Assembly: GCF_040712075.1 (NCBI RefSeq)
Contig: NZ_JBFCVL010000001.1
Span: 193,501 to 257,500, forward strand
Direction of reading: 5' to 3'
Length of the DNA stretch: 64,000 bases
From: Fodinicurvata sp. EGI_FJ10296
GTDB taxonomy: Bacteria > Pseudomonadota > Alphaproteobacteria > DSM-16000 > Inquilinaceae
Translations under genes and position numbers: made by a program
Part shown: one piece after another, positions 1-44,331 of the stretch
How the letters are laid out: each line of letters begins with the position of its first letter
Position numbering within the stretch: the stretch's first letter is position 1
Notes under the pieces: generated by a model
The model's database searches: none
What the model saw: only the letters and a program-made list of their open reading frames with translations
What the model was told of the DNA's origin: nothing

Positions 1-249
1 TTGAATGTCATCGCAAGACCTTTTTCGATTCGGCGAACCCGACCCAGCTATGCGCAAACTGCATGTTGCGCTGCGACAAGCTATCGGTTTAGACAGTCCT
101 CATTGAATCTGGACCCGGTGAAACTCCGGGTGGCTCTGCCGGCCGCCAATCCGCCGGACTCCCAATCTCGTGGACATCCGATCCGCCCGCCCGCTGCGGC
201 ACTGCCTGGGTGCGGCGCAAAGGATCGGCTTCGTCCATTCGGAACCAGC

Positions 250-9879: not shown

Positions 9880-10968
9880 TCAATAGCGCCGGTGCGCTCT
9901 CTTGATGACTCCTGTCGGCCTGCCCGTTGTCGGATCGGTTCCGACGAGGAGGCGCATCCCCGGCTTCCGCAGATCCCCAATTGCTTCAGACAAAGGCGTC
10001 GGCCCAGGCAGCGGTTTCCAGGAGCGATCAGGAGTCAGATGATCTATCAGGTTCTGGACGGACCAATCGGACAGGTCTACAAGACCGCCAGCTTCTTGTG
10101 ACCTGTTACAAATAAAATCAGCGACATCTTCTTTAGTGAACGCAGCAGCAGGAGTATCATCAGCGCCCAGACAAACGATTGCCGCCGCACTCCTGCCAGT
10201 CGAATCAAAGACCCTCGCCAAGTTCATGTCGGGGCAGACGGCTCGGAAGTTCTTGTCCAGCCGTGACGCCAAATCCTGAATTGACCTGCCTTGGGGCGTC
10301 GGTCGCGTGCGGATTATCTTGTCGGCGGTCGCGTGATGCCGCATCCATTGCGCTGTGGTCTGGCACCGGAGATCGATCAGTTTTGCGATTGCCGACAGCA
10401 TATCAGGGGGATTTTCCGACAGAATCGGCTCATGATGGGCCACGCGGTTTCGGAACCTATTGATCTTGCACACCAATTTTTGAATGTTATCACGTCCTTC
10501 CCCCCTCTGAAGATTCGGGAAAGCGATGTTTATCTTTGTGCGCCAGACAGATGCATATTCTCTTCGAAAAATGTTCGACCAGAAATCAAAATTTAGTTCG
10601 GCAACGAGTTTGTTTTTATCAGACTGCTCTCCCGCACGAACGATGGCCTTTTGTAACGCCTCATTGCTTCGACTACTAAATGTCTTGTCGATGAAATCGC
10701 GGTCCTTATGCCAATCAGACGTTCCGGCAATTCTTGCCAGCGTTTGATCCACCGCATTGCGAAAAACGATCTCAACCACATTTAGAGGAAAAAGAAACGA
10801 TTTAGCCAACCTTGAATTGAACAGGTAGAGTTCAATGGCATGGCTTTCGTCTCCGCCTGCGCGGTCAAGATAGGCAATGAATCGCGGCTCAGAGAGACCC
10901 GCACGGATCGCAGCGCGACTCTCCACGTCATAGGGAAAGGGCACTTGACTTTCTGCCATATAATCCAT
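9880..10968 (-). CDS. Abi-like HEPN-domain protein
   Basis: A 362-aa protein whose N-terminal ~210 residues match the Abi/Abi_2-like family: 'LFPLNVVEIVFRNAVDQTL', 'LNFDFWSNIFRREYASVW' and the closing 'RNRVAHHEPI'. The last contains R-x4-H, the catalytic motif of HEPN ribonucleases used in phage abortive infection and toxins. The C-terminal ~150 residues (with a repeated-looking 'LSDWSVQNLIDHLTPDRSW' segment) are unrecognised and Arg/Pro rich. The gene is visibly richer in A+T than its neighbours and lies alone between the TRAP operon and a dehydratase, both signs of acquisition. No antitoxin or methylase partner sits beside it. The RNase role is inference from the motif. Confidence 0.75.
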   Translation of the reverse strand: MDYMAESQVPFPYDVESRAAIRAGLSEPRFIAYLDRAGGDESHAIELYLFNSRLAKSFLFPLNVVEIVFRNAVDQTLARIAGTSDWHKDRDFIDKTFSSRSNEALQKAIVRAGEQSDKNKLVAELNFDFWSNIFRREYASVWRTKINIAFPNLQRGEGRDNIQKLVCKINRFRNRVAHHEPILSENPPDMLSAIAKLIDLRCQTTAQWMRHHATADKIIRTRPTPQGRSIQDLASRLDKNFRAVCPDMNLARVFDSTGRSAAAIVCLGADDTPAAAFTKEDVADFICNRSQEAGGLVDLSDWSVQNLIDHLTPDRSWKPLPGPTPLSEAIGDLRKPGMRLLVGTDPTTGRPTGVIKRAHRRY

Positions 10969-11057
10969 AATCCTGTTGACAGAGCAGCCGATGCGGCCCC
11001 ACTGGCCCTCAAGCCACTCCGGCTTGCGTGCTATGCGCCCTCGGCACCCTAATAGAG

Positions 11058-11095
11058 CACCGGGTCAGGCAATGCCTCACCCGGTGTTTCTCTTT
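11058..11095 (+). terminator. Rho-independent terminator, isolated
   Basis: An 8-bp stem (caccgggt / acccggtg) carries an inner aggc/gcct stem with an aat loop and is followed by tttctcttt. On the + strand it terminates transcription coming from antisense of the Abi-like gene, where I see no gene. It may be left over from the locus as it was before that gene arrived, or it may belong to a short unannotated transcript. Confidence 0.7.
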
Positions 11096-16625: not shown

Positions 16626-17711
16626 ATGGCCGAAGCGACCGGAAGCCCGCCCCAAGCGCCGCCCCGGTTCGACCGTGCGGCGCTGTCGGATTTCGCCGCC
16701 GCTGCGTTCGGCCGCTATGGCGTGCCGGACGATCAGGCCCGGATCGTCGCCGACGGCCTCGTCTTCGCCGATGCGCGCGGCATCGGCTCGCACGGCATCG
16801 TGCGGTTGCCGGTGTATGCCAGCCGGCTTGAGGCGGGCGTGGTCGCCGCCGACCCGGCGACCTCGGTGACGAAGGTCGCCTCCGGCGCGCTGTCGGTCGA
16901 TGGCGGCAATGGTCTTGGCCTCGCCGTCGGAACACGAGCGGCCGACGAAGCCGTTGCCCTGGCCGGGGAAACCGGGATCGCATTGGCAGCCGTCAGGAAC
17001 AGCAATCACTACGGCGCCGCCGGATTCTATGCTGAACGGGCGGTGGCGCACGACACGATCCTGATCACGGCGTCCAACGCGCCGCCCAACATGGCGCCCT
17101 GGGGCGGGAAGACGCGATTCCTGGGCACCAACCCGCTCAGCGTCGGCGTGCCGGCCGGCACCGAGCCGCCGGTGATCATCGATATGGCGACCAGCGTCGT
17201 GGCGCGTGGCAAGATTATTCTGGCCGATCACGAGGGGCGATCGATCCCCGAAGGCTGGGCCATAGACCCCGACGGTCGTCCGACGACCGATGCCCGCGCC
17301 GCGCTGGAGGGCGCCGTGCTGCCCTTTGGCGGCGCCAAGGGGTCGGCGATTTCGTTCCTGCTCGACATCCTTTGCGGCGTACTGTCGGGCGCGGCCTATG
17401 GCCATCACCTGCGCACGCTGGAGGACCTGTCGACGCAGCAGGATGTCGGCCATGTGTTCATCGCCATCCGCCCGGACGTCTTCATGCCGATGGCCGCGTT
17501 TCGACAACGCATGGACGACATCATCGGGATGCTGCGGGGCGTGCCGCCGGCGCCCGGCACCGACGCGGTGCTCTGCCCCGGCGATGTCGAACGCGCCCGC
17601 GAACGGGAAAGCGCAGAAACAGGCATTGCACTGTCGCCCGACGTCGTCGCCCAGCTCGAAACGCTGGGCCACCAGCTGGGCCTCGCGGTGCCGGCGCCCC
17701 GGCGGCACTAA
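16626..17711 (+). CDS. Ldh family (malate/L-lactate/ureidoglycolate-type) dehydrogenase
   Basis: An NAD(P)-dependent 2-hydroxyacid dehydrogenase of the malate/L-sulfolactate dehydrogenase family, 361 aa, unrelated to Rossmann-type LDH. The catalytic histidine lies in 'GIGSHGIVRLPVY'. Other core motifs are 'VRNSNHYGAAGFYAERA', 'PWGGKTRFLGTNPLSVGVPA' and 'GGAKGSAISFLLDI'. It is 4 bp downstream of the aldolase-like gene and convergent with the AraC-type regulator gene. The substrate is unknown; the neighbourhood suggests a sugar-acid or malate-like compound. Confidence 0.88.
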   Translation: MAEATGSPPQAPPRFDRAALSDFAAAAFGRYGVPDDQARIVADGLVFADARGIGSHGIVRLPVYASRLEAGVVAADPATSVTKVASGALSVDGGNGLGLAVGTRAADEAVALAGETGIALAAVRNSNHYGAAGFYAERAVAHDTILITASNAPPNMAPWGGKTRFLGTNPLSVGVPAGTEPPVIIDMATSVVARGKIILADHEGRSIPEGWAIDPDGRPTTDARAALEGAVLPFGGAKGSAISFLLDILCGVLSGAAYGHHLRTLEDLSTQQDVGHVFIAIRPDVFMPMAAFRQRMDDIIGMLRGVPPAPGTDAVLCPGDVERARERESAETGIALSPDVVAQLETLGHQLGLAVPAPRRH

Positions 17712-39986: not shown

Positions 39987-40334
39987 CTATCGGGAGAGGC
40001 GCGCTTCGACCATTTCGGCCACGGCGGCATCGGTAAGGCCCAGGCGGCGGACTGTCTGCGGAACATGTCCGCCAATATAGCCGATGGCATCGGCCACCAC
40101 GGCATTGCGAACCTCGACGCGGGCGAGATCGGCACCCTGGTCGACGGCCCGGCTGCGCGCATAGGACACGGCCCAGCCGACGGCGTCCTGGAGCCGGCGG
40201 GACAAATCGCTTTCCGCTTCGATGCCGAGCCGGTCGGCAAGCCGCTTCGCCGCCCAGCTGCCCGCCCCCAGCAGCATCGCCGCGCCTACGTTGATCACGG
40301 TTTCAAGAACCGGGCTCAGATCCAGGAATTCCAT
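39987..40334 (-). CDS. Phage holin-like small membrane protein (LLH type)
   Basis: A 115-aa protein with one N-terminal membrane helix ('VINVGAAMLLGAGSWAAKRL') followed by a helical soluble part, as in the phage LL-H holin family. The ATG at 40334 has ggagg 7 nt upstream. Its 5' end overlaps the endolysin gene by 19 bp. It is the last gene of the cassette. Function as holin or regulator is inferred from the endolysin next to it. Confidence 0.65.
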   Translation of the reverse strand: MEFLDLSPVLETVINVGAAMLLGAGSWAAKRLADRLGIEAESDLSRRLQDAVGWAVSYARSRAVDQGADLARVEVRNAVVADAIGYIGGHVPQTVRRLGLTDAAVAEMVEARLSR

Positions 40335-40996
40335 AGTCGCCTCCACAAAGATGATGATGTGATCGATGGTGTCGGGTGCTGCGGCGCTGCGCGGGCCCTG
40401 CGCACCGGCCCGGTCGCCCCGTCTCTCGCCCCAACTCTTTCCCCGTCTCGCCAGGGAGCCAGGGCTTCGGCTTCCTGGTGACAGGCGACGGCGCGCCGCG
40501 ACCAGCCGAGACCGAATGTCGGAAAGGTCGACAGCCGCCCGTAATAGGCCAGTCTTCGGGCGGTATAGTCGTCGAAGCAGGTCGGGTCGTCCGCCCTCGC
40601 CATCGCGGCGGCCAGCGTTTGTCCACCGACCAGCCCGTCGACAGTGACGTCGAGGGCCTGCTGCAACAGCCGGACAGCCCGGGCCGGGCCGGCGTTGACC
40701 GCCATATCGAAGACGGCGAAAGCCAGATGCACCGGCAGATCGGGGCCGTGACAGGCCCGCCAGTAGCCATGGCGATAGATATCAAAGACGTGTATCTCGG
40801 GAATGGATTTGAGGTCGTCCACACCCGGTTCGGGGAGTCCGTTACGGCGCGCCCAGCCGCGATAGGTGGCAAGCGTAATGCCAAAGTTGGTCGCCCCACC
40901 CGGATCTTCAGGATGGTCGGCGAACCCGCCTTCGTGCCGCAGAACGAAGTCGAGTGCGCGCTCGAACGCATCGCCGGCGCTCTGATTGGCGGTCAT
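40316..40996 (-). CDS. GH108 endolysin (lysozyme-like muramidase)
   Basis: A 226-aa peptidoglycan hydrolase of glycoside hydrolase family 108. The catalytic Glu is in 'FVLRHEGGFADHPEDPGGAT', followed by 'NFGITLATY', the hallmark of this phage lysozyme family. The C-terminal PG_binding_3 part contains 'LLQQALDVTVDGLVGGQTLA'. Start ATG 40996 overlaps the stop of the upstream gene by 4 bp (ATGA). No signal peptide is visible, so release would depend on a holin. No phage structural genes are nearby. Confidence 0.88.
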   Translation of the reverse strand: MTANQSAGDAFERALDFVLRHEGGFADHPEDPGGATNFGITLATYRGWARRNGLPEPGVDDLKSIPEIHVFDIYRHGYWRACHGPDLPVHLAFAVFDMAVNAGPARAVRLLQQALDVTVDGLVGGQTLAAAMARADDPTCFDDYTARRLAYYGRLSTFPTFGLGWSRRAVACHQEAEALAPWRDGERVGARDGATGPVRRARAAPQHPTPSITSSSLWRRLWNSWI

Positions 40997-41412
40997 GTCG
41001 ACAGCATCTCGCGCAGACCCAGCCAGGTGGCCGTGGCGGCGGCACCAAGCACGAGGCCGATGGCCGTCCGGCGAAAGATCGGCATGATCTGCTCGTGGGC
41101 AAGGCGCTGGTTGCGCAGGAACATGCGGTCGCGCTGGTATTCCGGATCCGCCGAGCGCAGGCGCGCATCGCGGAGCCAATCCGCATCCTGGCGGGTTGCA
41201 CGGGTGTCGGTGGTGTCGAACCCCAGCCGTTCGAGCACATCGCGGACTGCCGTATGGGCCGCTTGTTCCGCTGCGTCGCGCGCGGCATCGGCAACCGCCT
41301 CACGAACGGCATTCTGGGCGGCTGCGCAGGCCAGTTCGCGGACGATGTCCACACTCAGAGCGGGGTCGCCCGGCGCCGCCGACGGGGGCGCCGGTTCGGT
41401 CGTTACTGTCAT
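40993..41412 (-). CDS. Small membrane-anchored protein of the lysis cassette
   Basis: A 139-aa protein, unrecognised. An Ala-rich helix (residues ~25-65, 'RELACAAAQNAVREAVADA') is followed by a charged region and one C-terminal membrane helix ('RTAIGLVLGAAATATWLGL'). This is the shape of spanin-like or GTA-associated small proteins found beside endolysins. It is translationally coupled to the endolysin gene. Confidence 0.6.
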   Translation of the reverse strand: MTVTTEPAPPSAAPGDPALSVDIVRELACAAAQNAVREAVADAARDAAEQAAHTAVRDVLERLGFDTTDTRATRQDADWLRDARLRSADPEYQRDRMFLRNQRLAHEQIMPIFRRTAIGLVLGAAATATWLGLREMLST

Positions 41413-41499
41413 ATCCTGTCCTGATCTGTACGTTTGCGGGAATAGGCCCGGAGGCCATCGCCCGGCAGCCGACGCCCGGCATCAAGCGATGCAACGGAC

Positions 41500-41532
41500 A
41501 AAAAAAACCCGCCATCCCCGAGGGGTGGCGGG
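41500..41532 (-). terminator. Strong Rho-independent terminator upstream of the lysis cassette
   Basis: Reading the minus strand, the stem cccgccacccc / ggggatggcggg (11 bp with one wobble) is followed by eight T residues. It lies 88 bp before the first lysis gene and about 30 nt after a promoter-like sequence. Transcripts reaching the lysis genes would need to pass it, or else start between 41500 and 41412. Confidence 0.88.
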
Positions 41533-41564
41533 CTTACACGTCCGGCTGCTAGGACGATAATCCT

Positions 41565-41589
41565 ATTATAGCCTTGCTGTCGCTGTCAA
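41565..41589 (-). promoter_or_regulatory. Promoter-like sequence before the terminator
   Basis: On the minus strand a perfect TTGACA (41589-41584) and a perfect TATAAT (41570-41565) occur, but only 13 bp apart. With TAGGAT as -10 the spacing is 18 bp. A transcript from here would end at the 41500 terminator after ~60 nt, forming a small RNA or attenuated leader. Confidence 0.45.
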
Positions 41590-41648
41590 GACGCTAGGGG
41601 ACCGGCAGACGGCTGTTCGGCGGCTTCCCCGGCTACCAATTCCCCAAA

Positions 41649-42209
41649 TCAGCGTTTCCAGCTCCCCCGCGTTGCCGCGTTGCTCTCCATGCGCACGAGT
41701 TCCCGGTTCAGCGACCGGAACTCGCGGTCCAGGGCCCGGATCTCCAGGCGTAGCGCGCGGCGTTCGTCCTCGTCGACGCCATCGCTGGCAAGTCGGTTTT
41801 CCAGGCGGTCGATGTCGCGCTCGACGCTTGCCAGTTCCTGCGAAACCTGGTGAATGGCCCTGCCATCGCGATAGCCCGCCAGGAACCCGGCTTCATCGCC
41901 GGGCGGACAGACCCCCTGATAGCTACCGCCGCTTCGGCCGACCTCGAAACCGCTTTCCGGCGTGCAGTACCGCGCAAGTCCGTCGTCGCGACCCTGGAAA
42001 TAGGCCTCCGGGTTGGGGATAATACCGTATTCGCCGCAGGCCTCGGCGTGATTGTTGAGCCGCGAGCGGGGCTGGCCGTTGGCGCCGTCGAGCCGGCCGA
42101 GTTCGTACCAATTCGCCGTTCGGCACTCACCTTCGGATAATGTGGCGCAGGCCGATACGCCCCACGCCAGCAGAACCATGGCCGTGACCCCGACGAAACC
42201 GTGTTGCAT
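41649..42209 (-). CDS. DUF2799 family lipoprotein
   Basis: A 186-aa outer- or inner-membrane-anchored lipoprotein. The signal peptide ends in the lipobox 'WGVSAC' with the acylated Cys at residue ~19. The family signature is the double 'NWYELGRLDGANGQPRSRL' and 'YFQGRDDGLARYC' pattern with paired cysteines. The last ~60 residues form a coiled coil ('SVERDIDRLENRLASDGVDE'). The frame extends to 42581, but the ATG at 42209 is the only start before a signal peptide. Confidence 0.82.
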   Translation of the reverse strand: MQHGFVGVTAMVLLAWGVSACATLSEGECRTANWYELGRLDGANGQPRSRLNNHAEACGEYGIIPNPEAYFQGRDDGLARYCTPESGFEVGRSGGSYQGVCPPGDEAGFLAGYRDGRAIHQVSQELASVERDIDRLENRLASDGVDEDERRALRLEIRALDREFRSLNRELVRMESNAATRGSWKR

Positions 42210-42397
42210 TTTTCCATCCCGCGTTTTTTGCTGCCGGATCGGCGCTGGTGCCCCCAAGATCGCGGGGGATCTGTGCCAGAATACGACGGCCCCGGACATC
42301 GATGCAAACGCCTTGGGATACGCACGGCTCGGAAAGCGTCTGCGGCGCGACGGCATACTGAAGGCGCGATTGTGCGGTAAAACTTGTCTGTCCGGAC

Positions 42398-42820
42398 CTA
42401 CTGGCTGATATAGGCCCGCAGCAGCGTCGCTTCTTCTTCGATATCGGCCATACGGCTCTTCACGACGTCGCCGATCGACACCATGCCGACGACACGACCG
42501 GCGTTCATTACAGGAAGATGCCTGATCCGCCTTTCGGTCATGGTATGCATCAGATCGCTGATACTGTCCGACGGCGCGCAAGTATAGACTTCGGCCGTCA
42601 TGACCTCTCCGACGGTCGAGGCGATATCGCCCTGGCGGGCGATGACGCGGACAAAATCGCGTTCCGACACGAGACCGAGCAACCGCTCGTCCTTGTCCAT
42701 GACGAGAAGGGCGCCAACCTTGCGTTCGGCCATCGTCGCGGCGGCTTCTCGAACCGTCGCGTCGGGGGTGACGCTGTAAACGGCTGACCCCTTGACCTGA
42801 AGGATCGATGCAACAGTCAT
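42398..42820 (-). CDS. CBS-domain pair protein
   Basis: A 140-aa cytoplasmic protein made of two CBS motifs that form one Bateman module, the type that binds adenine nucleotides. The first ends 'MDKDERLLGLVSERDFVRVI', the second 'RHLPVMNAGRVVGMVSIGDV'. ATG 42820 follows ggggagg at ~9 nt. It stands alone; no partner enzyme or channel is fused. Stand-alone CBS proteins of this length are common in alphaproteobacteria and poorly understood. Confidence 0.9.
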   Translation of the reverse strand: MTVASILQVKGSAVYSVTPDATVREAAATMAERKVGALLVMDKDERLLGLVSERDFVRVIARQGDIASTVGEVMTAEVYTCAPSDSISDLMHTMTERRIRHLPVMNAGRVVGMVSIGDVVKSRMADIEEEATLLRAYISQ

Positions 42821-42965
42821 GATCTGCCTCCCCTGTTCAGGTGGCCGGAACGCGCGACGCCGACGCACGGCTCCGATGGGACAGCATACAACATTACCGC
42901 CGACATTGACCATCCGGATCAAACAATCGGGGGCAAATTACTGCGGTCAGTTGCCGATCAGCCGT

Positions 42966-43487
42966 TCAGTCTTCCTCGTCCGTCTCCGGGTCTTCATCAC
43001 CCGACTCCTCGGCAGTTTCCTCACCGGGGAAGCCGCTTTCGCCGCCACCGCCAGCTCCGGCATCGGGGCCGTTCATGGAGTCCACGATCGTTGAACCGGA
43101 TCCGGTCGACTCGAGCTCGGCCTCCATCTCGGCCTCGACATCGTCAGCCGTGACTGTCGGGATGCCTTCTTCGACCGCAGCCAGGATGGTTTCCTCCAGA
43201 TCGTCCAGTAGACCCATGGCCATCTCGTCGTTGCCGCCGGCGCACGCCTCGGAGGCCTGCTGTTGCAGCGTGAAGATGTCGTTCAACGCACCGGACGGGA
43301 TCTCCATATCCTTTTCCCGAATCAGATCCTCGATCTCCGCCATGCGCGTGTTGCAGTCAACAGCGGCATCAGCGGAACTGCTGGAATCGGTGCCCGATTC
43401 GGCAAATGCCGACGCCCCCAAAGTCAGCAACAATGCCGACGCCAGCGATGCGAAGCCGTATCTGGATAACCTGCTATCAATGATCAT
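42966..43487 (-). CDS. Exported acidic protein of unknown function
   Basis: A 173-aa protein, not recognised. A signal peptide (about residues 1-26, 'ASLASALLLTLGASAFAES') is followed by a helical region with two cysteines ('VDCNTRM', 'EACAGG') that could form a disulfide. A Gly-rich hinge precedes a strongly acidic tail ('EESGDEDPETDEED'). The tail could bind Ca2+ or another cation; this is inference. An ATG at 43514 is an alternative start. A 7-bp inverted repeat (43516-43533) lies just upstream. Confidence 0.6.
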   Translation of the reverse strand: MIIDSRLSRYGFASLASALLLTLGASAFAESGTDSSSSADAAVDCNTRMAEIEDLIREKDMEIPSGALNDIFTLQQQASEACAGGNDEMAMGLLDDLEETILAAVEEGIPTVTADDVEAEMEAELESTGSGSTIVDSMNGPDAGAGGGGESGFPGEETAEESGDEDPETDEED

Positions 43488-43698
43488 CGTGTTTTCTTCG
43501 TCCCCATTGGCCATCGAGACCGATACCGGTCTCCAAAGGATTTTCCGCCGGACCCCTACCCTGCCATGCCGGTCCGGCCAACGATTCCGGCTACGCGGGC
43601 GCGATGGGTCCTGAGCCCATCTTATCAGACAGGTGCCGGTCCGGATTCTATCCCCCCGAAATCCATGTTCGGACCTCCGGGCCGGCAGTTCCACCTCG

Positions 43699-44181
43699 TC
43701 ACTCGTCGTCGATACGGCCGATGCGCTCCTGAATGTAGTTCTGGATGCCGACCATACGGACCAGATCCTGCTGCGCCTCGACCCAATCGATATGCTCCTC
43801 GGTCTCCCGCAGGATCTTCAGCAGAATGTCCCGCGACACGTAGTCGTTGGCCTGTTCCGCGGCCTTGATCGCCTCCTTGAGGTCGGCCTGGTTCTGCTTT
43901 TCCAGCCCCATATCGGCGGTGAACATTTCTTCCACCGACTCACCGACCTTCAAGCTGTGCAAATCCTGAAGATTGGGCAAGCCGTCGAGCATCAGTATCC
44001 GCTCGATCAGCAGGTCGGCGTGCTTCATTTCGCCGATCGATTCCTCGTATATCTTGTCGGCGAGGGTGAGAATTCCCCAGTTTTTCAGAATCCGCGCATG
44101 CAGGAAATACTGATTGGTCGCGGAAAGCTCGTTCGTGAGAATCCCGTTCATATGCTTGATGACGTTCGGGTCACCCTTCAT
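43699..44181 (-). CDS. bfr: Bacterioferritin
   Basis: A 160-aa heme-containing ferritin that oxidises and stores iron as a 24-mer. Ferroxidase ligands are visible: Glu in 'GILTNELSATNQYF', 'YEESIGEMKHADLLIERIL' with E-x2-H, and 'RETEEHIDWVEAQQD' with E-x2-H. The heme-ligand Met is in 'KHADLLIERILMLDG'. The start at 44181 has aggag upstream. It is divergent from bfd, which encodes the ferredoxin that releases its iron, across a 186-bp control region. Confidence 0.95.
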   Translation of the reverse strand: MKGDPNVIKHMNGILTNELSATNQYFLHARILKNWGILTLADKIYEESIGEMKHADLLIERILMLDGLPNLQDLHSLKVGESVEEMFTADMGLEKQNQADLKEAIKAAEQANDYVSRDILLKILRETEEHIDWVEAQQDLVRMVGIQNYIQERIGRIDDE

Positions 44182-44331
44182 CGTATTCTCCTGTCGTCTC
44201 CGGTTACCGGTCCGGCAGCAATTACTGCCGCCGCTCCGCCATACATCAGGCACGAATATCACGCCTCAAACTGAGGCAACCTGACGGGCCGATCAATAAG
44301 CAAGCACGAACTGCGAAGAAGGAGCAGGCGA

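Follow-up and report, generated by a model that had tools for sequence, protein, structure and literature searches.

A putative attenuated leader of phage-late layout in front of a GH108 lysis cassette in Fodinicurvata sp. EGI_FJ10296

The window, by which we mean the whole stretch of 64,000 nucleotides of the Fodinicurvata sp. EGI_FJ10296 genome analysed here, carries a cassette of three minus-strand genes, the second of which (gene 2; 40316-40996) encodes a GH108 endolysin with a PG_binding_3 domain. Both domains score over their Pfam cut-offs (GH108 with 90.8 bits) and the PHROG library places the protein in its endolysin category; this identity is solid. Against the NCBIfam holin-associated muramidase equivalog the protein reaches 91 of 240 bits, below the cut-off. 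Gene 1 (40993-41412) encodes 139 aa with a single, weak hydrophobic stretch towards the C-terminus, and gene 3 (39987-40334) encodes 115 aa with an N-terminal hydrophobic stretch. Neither has a match in Pfam or NCBIfam, and because both match only PHROGs of unknown function (phrog_6420 and, in a scan run from 40346, phrog_17576 respectively), calling either of them, gene 1 included, a holin is a guess. Lysis genes had been predicted downstream of the leader, which is borne out for the endolysin and, for the two other ORFs, goes no further than these PHROG families. The start of gene 2 overlaps the stop of gene 1 (ATGA). The genome holds three further GH108 cassettes, each within a prophage-like element; gene 1 is 45-47% and gene 2 59-60% identical to the three prophage copies, and gene 3 is 42-43% identical to the two of the three copies that were aligned. 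Judged by these relatives, the cassette is of phage type. Its flanks are made up of ABC-transporter-like genes (named by eye) on one side and of DUF2799, CBS and ferritin-like genes (Pfam) on the other. Third-position GC of genes 1, 2 and 3 is 0.77, 0.73 and 0.77, that of nearby host genes mostly 0.7-0.84, and that of the prophage copies 0.84-0.91 for genes 1 and 2 and 0.78-0.83 for gene 3.

Upstream of the cassette, and downstream of the DUF2799 gene (41649-42209, minus strand; 81 bits in Pfam), lies a short minus-strand leader. It opens with a perfect TTGACA (41584-41589), followed at 18-bp spacing by TAGGAT (41560-41565), a pair that scores 10/12 in the promoter scan, with the -10 itself weak at 4/6. 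A TATAAT is also present (41565-41570). A gap of 13 bp is too short for the pairing of -35 and -10 elements under the usual sigma-70 spacing rule, and since the TATAAT stands only 13 nt from the TTGACA, we prefer TAGGAT as the likely -10. The original prediction is thereby upheld in its perfect -35 and in its 18-bp alternative, with TATAAT set aside as the -10. A tandem GACAGC GACAGC (41576-41587), noticed by eye, overlaps the -35 and the spacer and is a possible protein site. About 25 nt beyond TAGGAT, a GC-rich hairpin (approximately 41534-41508) and eight T residues (41507-41500) form a predicted intrinsic terminator (41500-41534). The folding energy of the 63-nt leader is -31.2 kcal/mol, whereas its shuffles average -18.65 +/- 2.89 (z -4.34), none of the 200 doing as well, with the hairpin alone at -23.0 and a T-run among the longest in our hairpin sample, in agreement with the strong terminator originally predicted behind the promoter; the tool's own terminator scan leaves this hairpin unlisted. 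An RNA running from the promoter to the terminator would measure about 54 nt. The first cassette ORF starts at 41412, 95 nt from the T-run, and because the interval from the terminator to this gene is free of promoter-like sites in the sigma-70 scan, readthrough is the likely route to expression of the cassette. The spacer of the window promoter contains no inverted repeat of 4 or more. A shared spacer element was also sought across the genome and dropped, as near matches with up to 3 mismatches numbered 18, including the site itself, against 13 for the reversed control.

The same arrangement recurs in the genome at the late operons of resident prophages. To count as a unit in our scan, a site needed a -35 matching at 5/6 or better, a -10 spaced 16-18 nt from it and, no more than 110 nt away, a hairpin with T-run; there were 14 matches in 864 kb and 3 more in an extra 400 kb, or 17 in 1.264 Mb. 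A perfect TTGACA is found in five of these, namely the window leader, the starts of three prophage late operons (those of elements C2, C3 and C5) and the leader of the ribosomal L13/S9 genes. Requiring in addition a hairpin of -18 kcal/mol or lower, four of the 14 units in the 864 kb remain: the window leader and those at L022 2764 (+), L024 1839 (+) and L027 16982 (-). The sampling behind these counts was not random, as 120 kb of it, the three prophages, had been included deliberately; the background of 1,080 kb has 12 units, one of them, the L13/S9 leader, with a perfect TTGACA. Profile matches of the C3 element comprise terminase subunits, portal, head protease, head protein and integrase. 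The C2 late operon starts with a gene for a neck or tail-completion protein, and the prophage call for C5 rests on its likeness to C3. At the three prophage leaders the T-run lies 25-27 nt from the first gene, and C3 and C5 have poor -10 elements. Upon alignment of the four leaders, common sequence is evident only between C3 and C5, so the likeness of the window leader to those of the prophages is one of layout. The predicted resemblance to phage late-gene control holds for the arrangement, and a reading in terms of such control gains support by layout only. Nor is the layout specific to phages, as the host L13/S9 leader has it too: at L173 11865 (-) a perfect TTGACA, a short leader and a hairpin with T-run precede the ribosomal L13 and S9 genes, and this looks like an attenuator, differing from the window leader in its weaker hairpin (-13.1) and in belonging to a host operon. 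In a separate observation, L022 2764-2899 (+) and L024 1839-1974 (+) represent a shared late leader with an extra hairpin before the terminator, shorter in L024, and this hairpin is a possible cis-acting antitermination RNA. Near the C3 late leader we also noted a gene with a SIR2-like domain (L022 125-1414 (-)), possibly an anti-phage defence gene.

Outside this genome the locus has few counterparts. The leader sequence finds only itself in its own genome and, among 16 relatives, gives short matches to the terminator part in three. The GH108 gene of the window is without a match in 15 of the 16 family relatives and has a weak one in the other, and the locus as a whole is present in none of the relatives examined. 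A profile of gene 1 matches strongly only in its own genome within the class sample, with weak partial matches in 5 of the 384 other genomes; neither gene 1 nor the first late gene of C3 has relatives in viral contigs. GH108 proteins occur in 692 phage records, all at less than 60% identity. The suggested search for such leaders in front of endolysin genes elsewhere lent no support to a general link. In a survey of 91 GH108 loci, with 8 excluded for having fewer than 600 bases upstream and the viral loci being the best 80 of 133, a promoter-terminator unit lies within 2.5 kb upstream at one of 83 loci, and we consequently rejected this leader as a general feature of GH108 genes.

The order of elements in the window invites comparison with several systems of late control. 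Under Q, the lambda pR'-tR' region comprises a promoter, a short leader, a terminator and then the lysis genes. The window has the same four components in the same order, and differs in that no Q gene is recognised beside the cassette and no structural genes follow. In Pseudomonas, AlpA enables the polymerase to transcribe past a terminator that precedes the alpB lysis genes; as described for P. aeruginosa alpBCDE, the lysis cassette there is chromosomal and, as in the window, a promoter and then an intrinsic terminator come ahead of its first gene (PMC7969949). A binding element is not recognised in the window; on paper the window looks like Alp, which is the nearest working model. The third system is the gene transfer agent (GTA) cluster of Caulobacter, in which GafZ passes a terminator (PMC11150451). 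It too is a phage-derived operon of an alphaproteobacterium, for which the window would offer a parallel as a candidate for anti-termination, and a DUF6456 protein is encoded in the C2 prophage of our genome; unlike in the window, the terminator passed by GafZ lies after the first gene in the account of PMC11150451, and the window spacer lacks the palindromic element of the GafZ promoter. A GTA origin of the cassette was rejected, the one marker used, PF13547, being absent from the genome and detected in the Caulobacter control. The arrangement common to control of the Q, AlpA and GafZ types, a promoter and then an intrinsic terminator ahead of genes, is thus present in the window at the level of sequence, together with the endolysin gene of a phage lysis cassette.

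Of the explanations considered, the best, to which we give about an even chance of being right, is that the window holds an attenuated leader of phage-late type controlling a lysis operon comparable to those of lambda pR' and Alp. The sigma-70-type promoter (41589-41560) would start an RNA that stops about 54 nt on at the terminator (41534-41500), keeping the cassette off. Readthrough, and with it the making of the endolysin and its two partner proteins, would follow once a factor loads on the polymerase at the promoter or close to it, or once the terminator is overcome in some other way. Given that the layout is common to three prophage late starts, the lysis genes are probably silent until the polymerase passes the stop. 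The hairpin probably also insulates them from the DUF2799 transcript.

A rather unlikely, albeit credible, alternative is that the terminator is simply the 3' end of the DUF2799 lipoprotein mRNA, with the promoter-like letters arising by chance and the lysis genes being silent or served by an unrecognised promoter. The T-run lies 142 nt past the DUF2799 stop on the same strand. Such a spacing is usual, as in a first scan 16 of 38 hairpins lay -9 to 398 nt from a same-strand gene end (the window hairpin is not among the 16, the DUF2799 gene having been missed by the gene finder). Moreover, the scan lists no other terminator-like site between DUF2799 and the lysis genes, and the -10 of the window matches at just 4/6. 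What speaks against a chance promoter is its rarity. When the 113 nt preceding the hairpin were dinucleotide-shuffled 20,000 times, a perfect TTGACA with a -10 of at least 4/6 at 16-18 nt appeared with a frequency of 5e-5 (one shuffle), and any promoter of at least 10/12 with 0.00185. We also collected 98 hairpins of -16 kcal/mol or lower with a T-run and dropped 50 inside predicted genes; these gene labels, like those in the unit scan, are approximate, because the simple gene finder overlooked two genes of the window, those for DUF2799 and GH108. Only two of the 48 outside hairpins have a promoter of at least 10/12 within 90 nt upstream, the window leader and the leader of the C2 prophage late operon, and five have an upstream TTGACA (the window, C2, C3 and C5 leaders and a site at window position 11087 (+)). 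A strict pattern of the whole unit occurs just once in the 4.83-Mb genome, at the window site; being modelled on that site and misfitting the prophage leaders, it conveys the rarity of the letters rather than significance.

Less probable still is that leader and cassette are the unused, decayed ends of an old prophage late operon whose structural genes were deleted, a history that would fit the isolation of the cassette between ABC-transporter-like and DUF2799/CBS/ferritin-like genes and the scarcity of its GH108 gene among family relatives. Yet each of the three ORFs is open, the overlap of genes 1 and 2 is in the manner of live operons, and gene 2 keeps the HEGG motif of GH108, which has a catalytic role. 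In genes 1 and 2 third-position GC is nearer to host genes than to the prophage copies, and in gene 3 hardly so, which weakly suggests a long residence without loss. That the promoter and terminator form a compact unit of about 54 nt could suit a free small RNA unrelated to the lysis genes, which we hold to be very unlikely: about 54 nt is very short for a trans-acting RNA, the leader matches in relatives are restricted to short terminator parts, and Rfam gives no match at the gathering score for the leader, in the window and L001, or for the prophage leaders.

The attenuated leader favoured above calls for a factor, and a Pfam scan of the seven proteins encoded at 39987-44184 did not recognise an antiterminator. 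A candidate type is found on another contig, where the C2 prophage encodes the only DUF6456 match in the genome (L027 19118-19666 (-)), about 2.1 kb upstream of the C2 late promoter at 16982 (-), with an IS-like gene on the opposite strand between the two (recognised by eye and by HTH domains). The spacer of this late promoter carries a perfect palindrome, GCCGTACGGC, and a terminator precedes the first late gene. Among random 17-mers, 3.6% contain an inverted repeat with arms of at least 5, and 16.6% one with 4-nt arms such as that of the C3 spacer; the C5 spacer has none. In Caulobacter, GafZ is described as an anti-terminator on reporter and ChIP evidence, with a putative element that is a near-palindrome between -35 and -10, and is likened to the C-terminal part of GafA (PMC11150451), relatives of which are annotated as DUF6456 (PMC9638019, PMC9765227). 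No palindrome of the GafZ-element type is present in the window spacer. The DUF6456 protein of C2 and its spacer-palindrome promoter are likely a Q-like pair. The protein has no relatives in viral contigs and none in phage records, and its type is listed as unknown in the PHROG library.

Profile PF20057, whose equivalence to GafZ is putative, matches in the Caulobacter control genome and in 71 of 385 class genomes. We took all 36 weaker DUF6456 matches outside our own genome (E 2e-15 to 9.5e-4; five below the family cut-off) and looked for units with a hairpin of -14 or lower at -1000 to +4000 nt relative to the match end, several of these stretches stopping at contig ends. A promoter-terminator unit was found on the same strand at 11 of the 36 and on the opposite strand at one. 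In 10 of the 11 such a unit follows the match, 100 to 3,379 nt beyond its end, with L243 having one only upstream in this range; L241 and L243 are the below-cut-off matches among the 11. The TTGACA is perfect in the downstream units of L215, L232, L233 and L238 and in the upstream units of L241 and L243, with one -35 mismatch at the remaining five loci. When the next genes were scanned at four loci, terminase subunits emerged in L235, L236 and L237, and L225 was without a match. Across 30 strong GafA-type loci, both strands together gave 4 units, spread over 3 loci and all lacking a perfect TTGACA. This gene order suggests that the prophage DUF6456 proteins are Q-like late antiterminators. A fuller reading would join two claims, that the window holds an Alp-like lysis operon which has become domesticated and is anti-terminated in trans by a resident prophage, and that phage DUF6456 proteins, as relatives of GafZ, are widespread Q-like late antiterminators of Alphaproteobacteria acting at promoter-terminator leaders. 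We consider the conjunction quite unlikely; its DUF6456 half stands alone and is the better supported one.

Should the attenuated leader prove to work as proposed, this bacterium would be keeping a lone phage lysis module under a phage-type stop-and-release control, a further case beside the Alp system of Pseudomonas. Such control, as read from the sequence, would be of a type familiar from phages in an unusual place, ordinary in kind and of interest for its context. The presence of DUF6456 genes near prophage late promoter-terminator leaders would likewise suggest, for a type of protein listed as unknown in PHROG, a role open to testing. Two further features of the window were recorded, the sul1 RNA (RF03058) at 108-163 (+), its sole Rfam match at the gathering score, and a region at 10940-11087 (+), in which promoter-like TTGACT, TATAAT and TTGACA letters and a strong hairpin lie just upstream of a dihydroxy-acid dehydratase-type gene and may constitute another attenuator.
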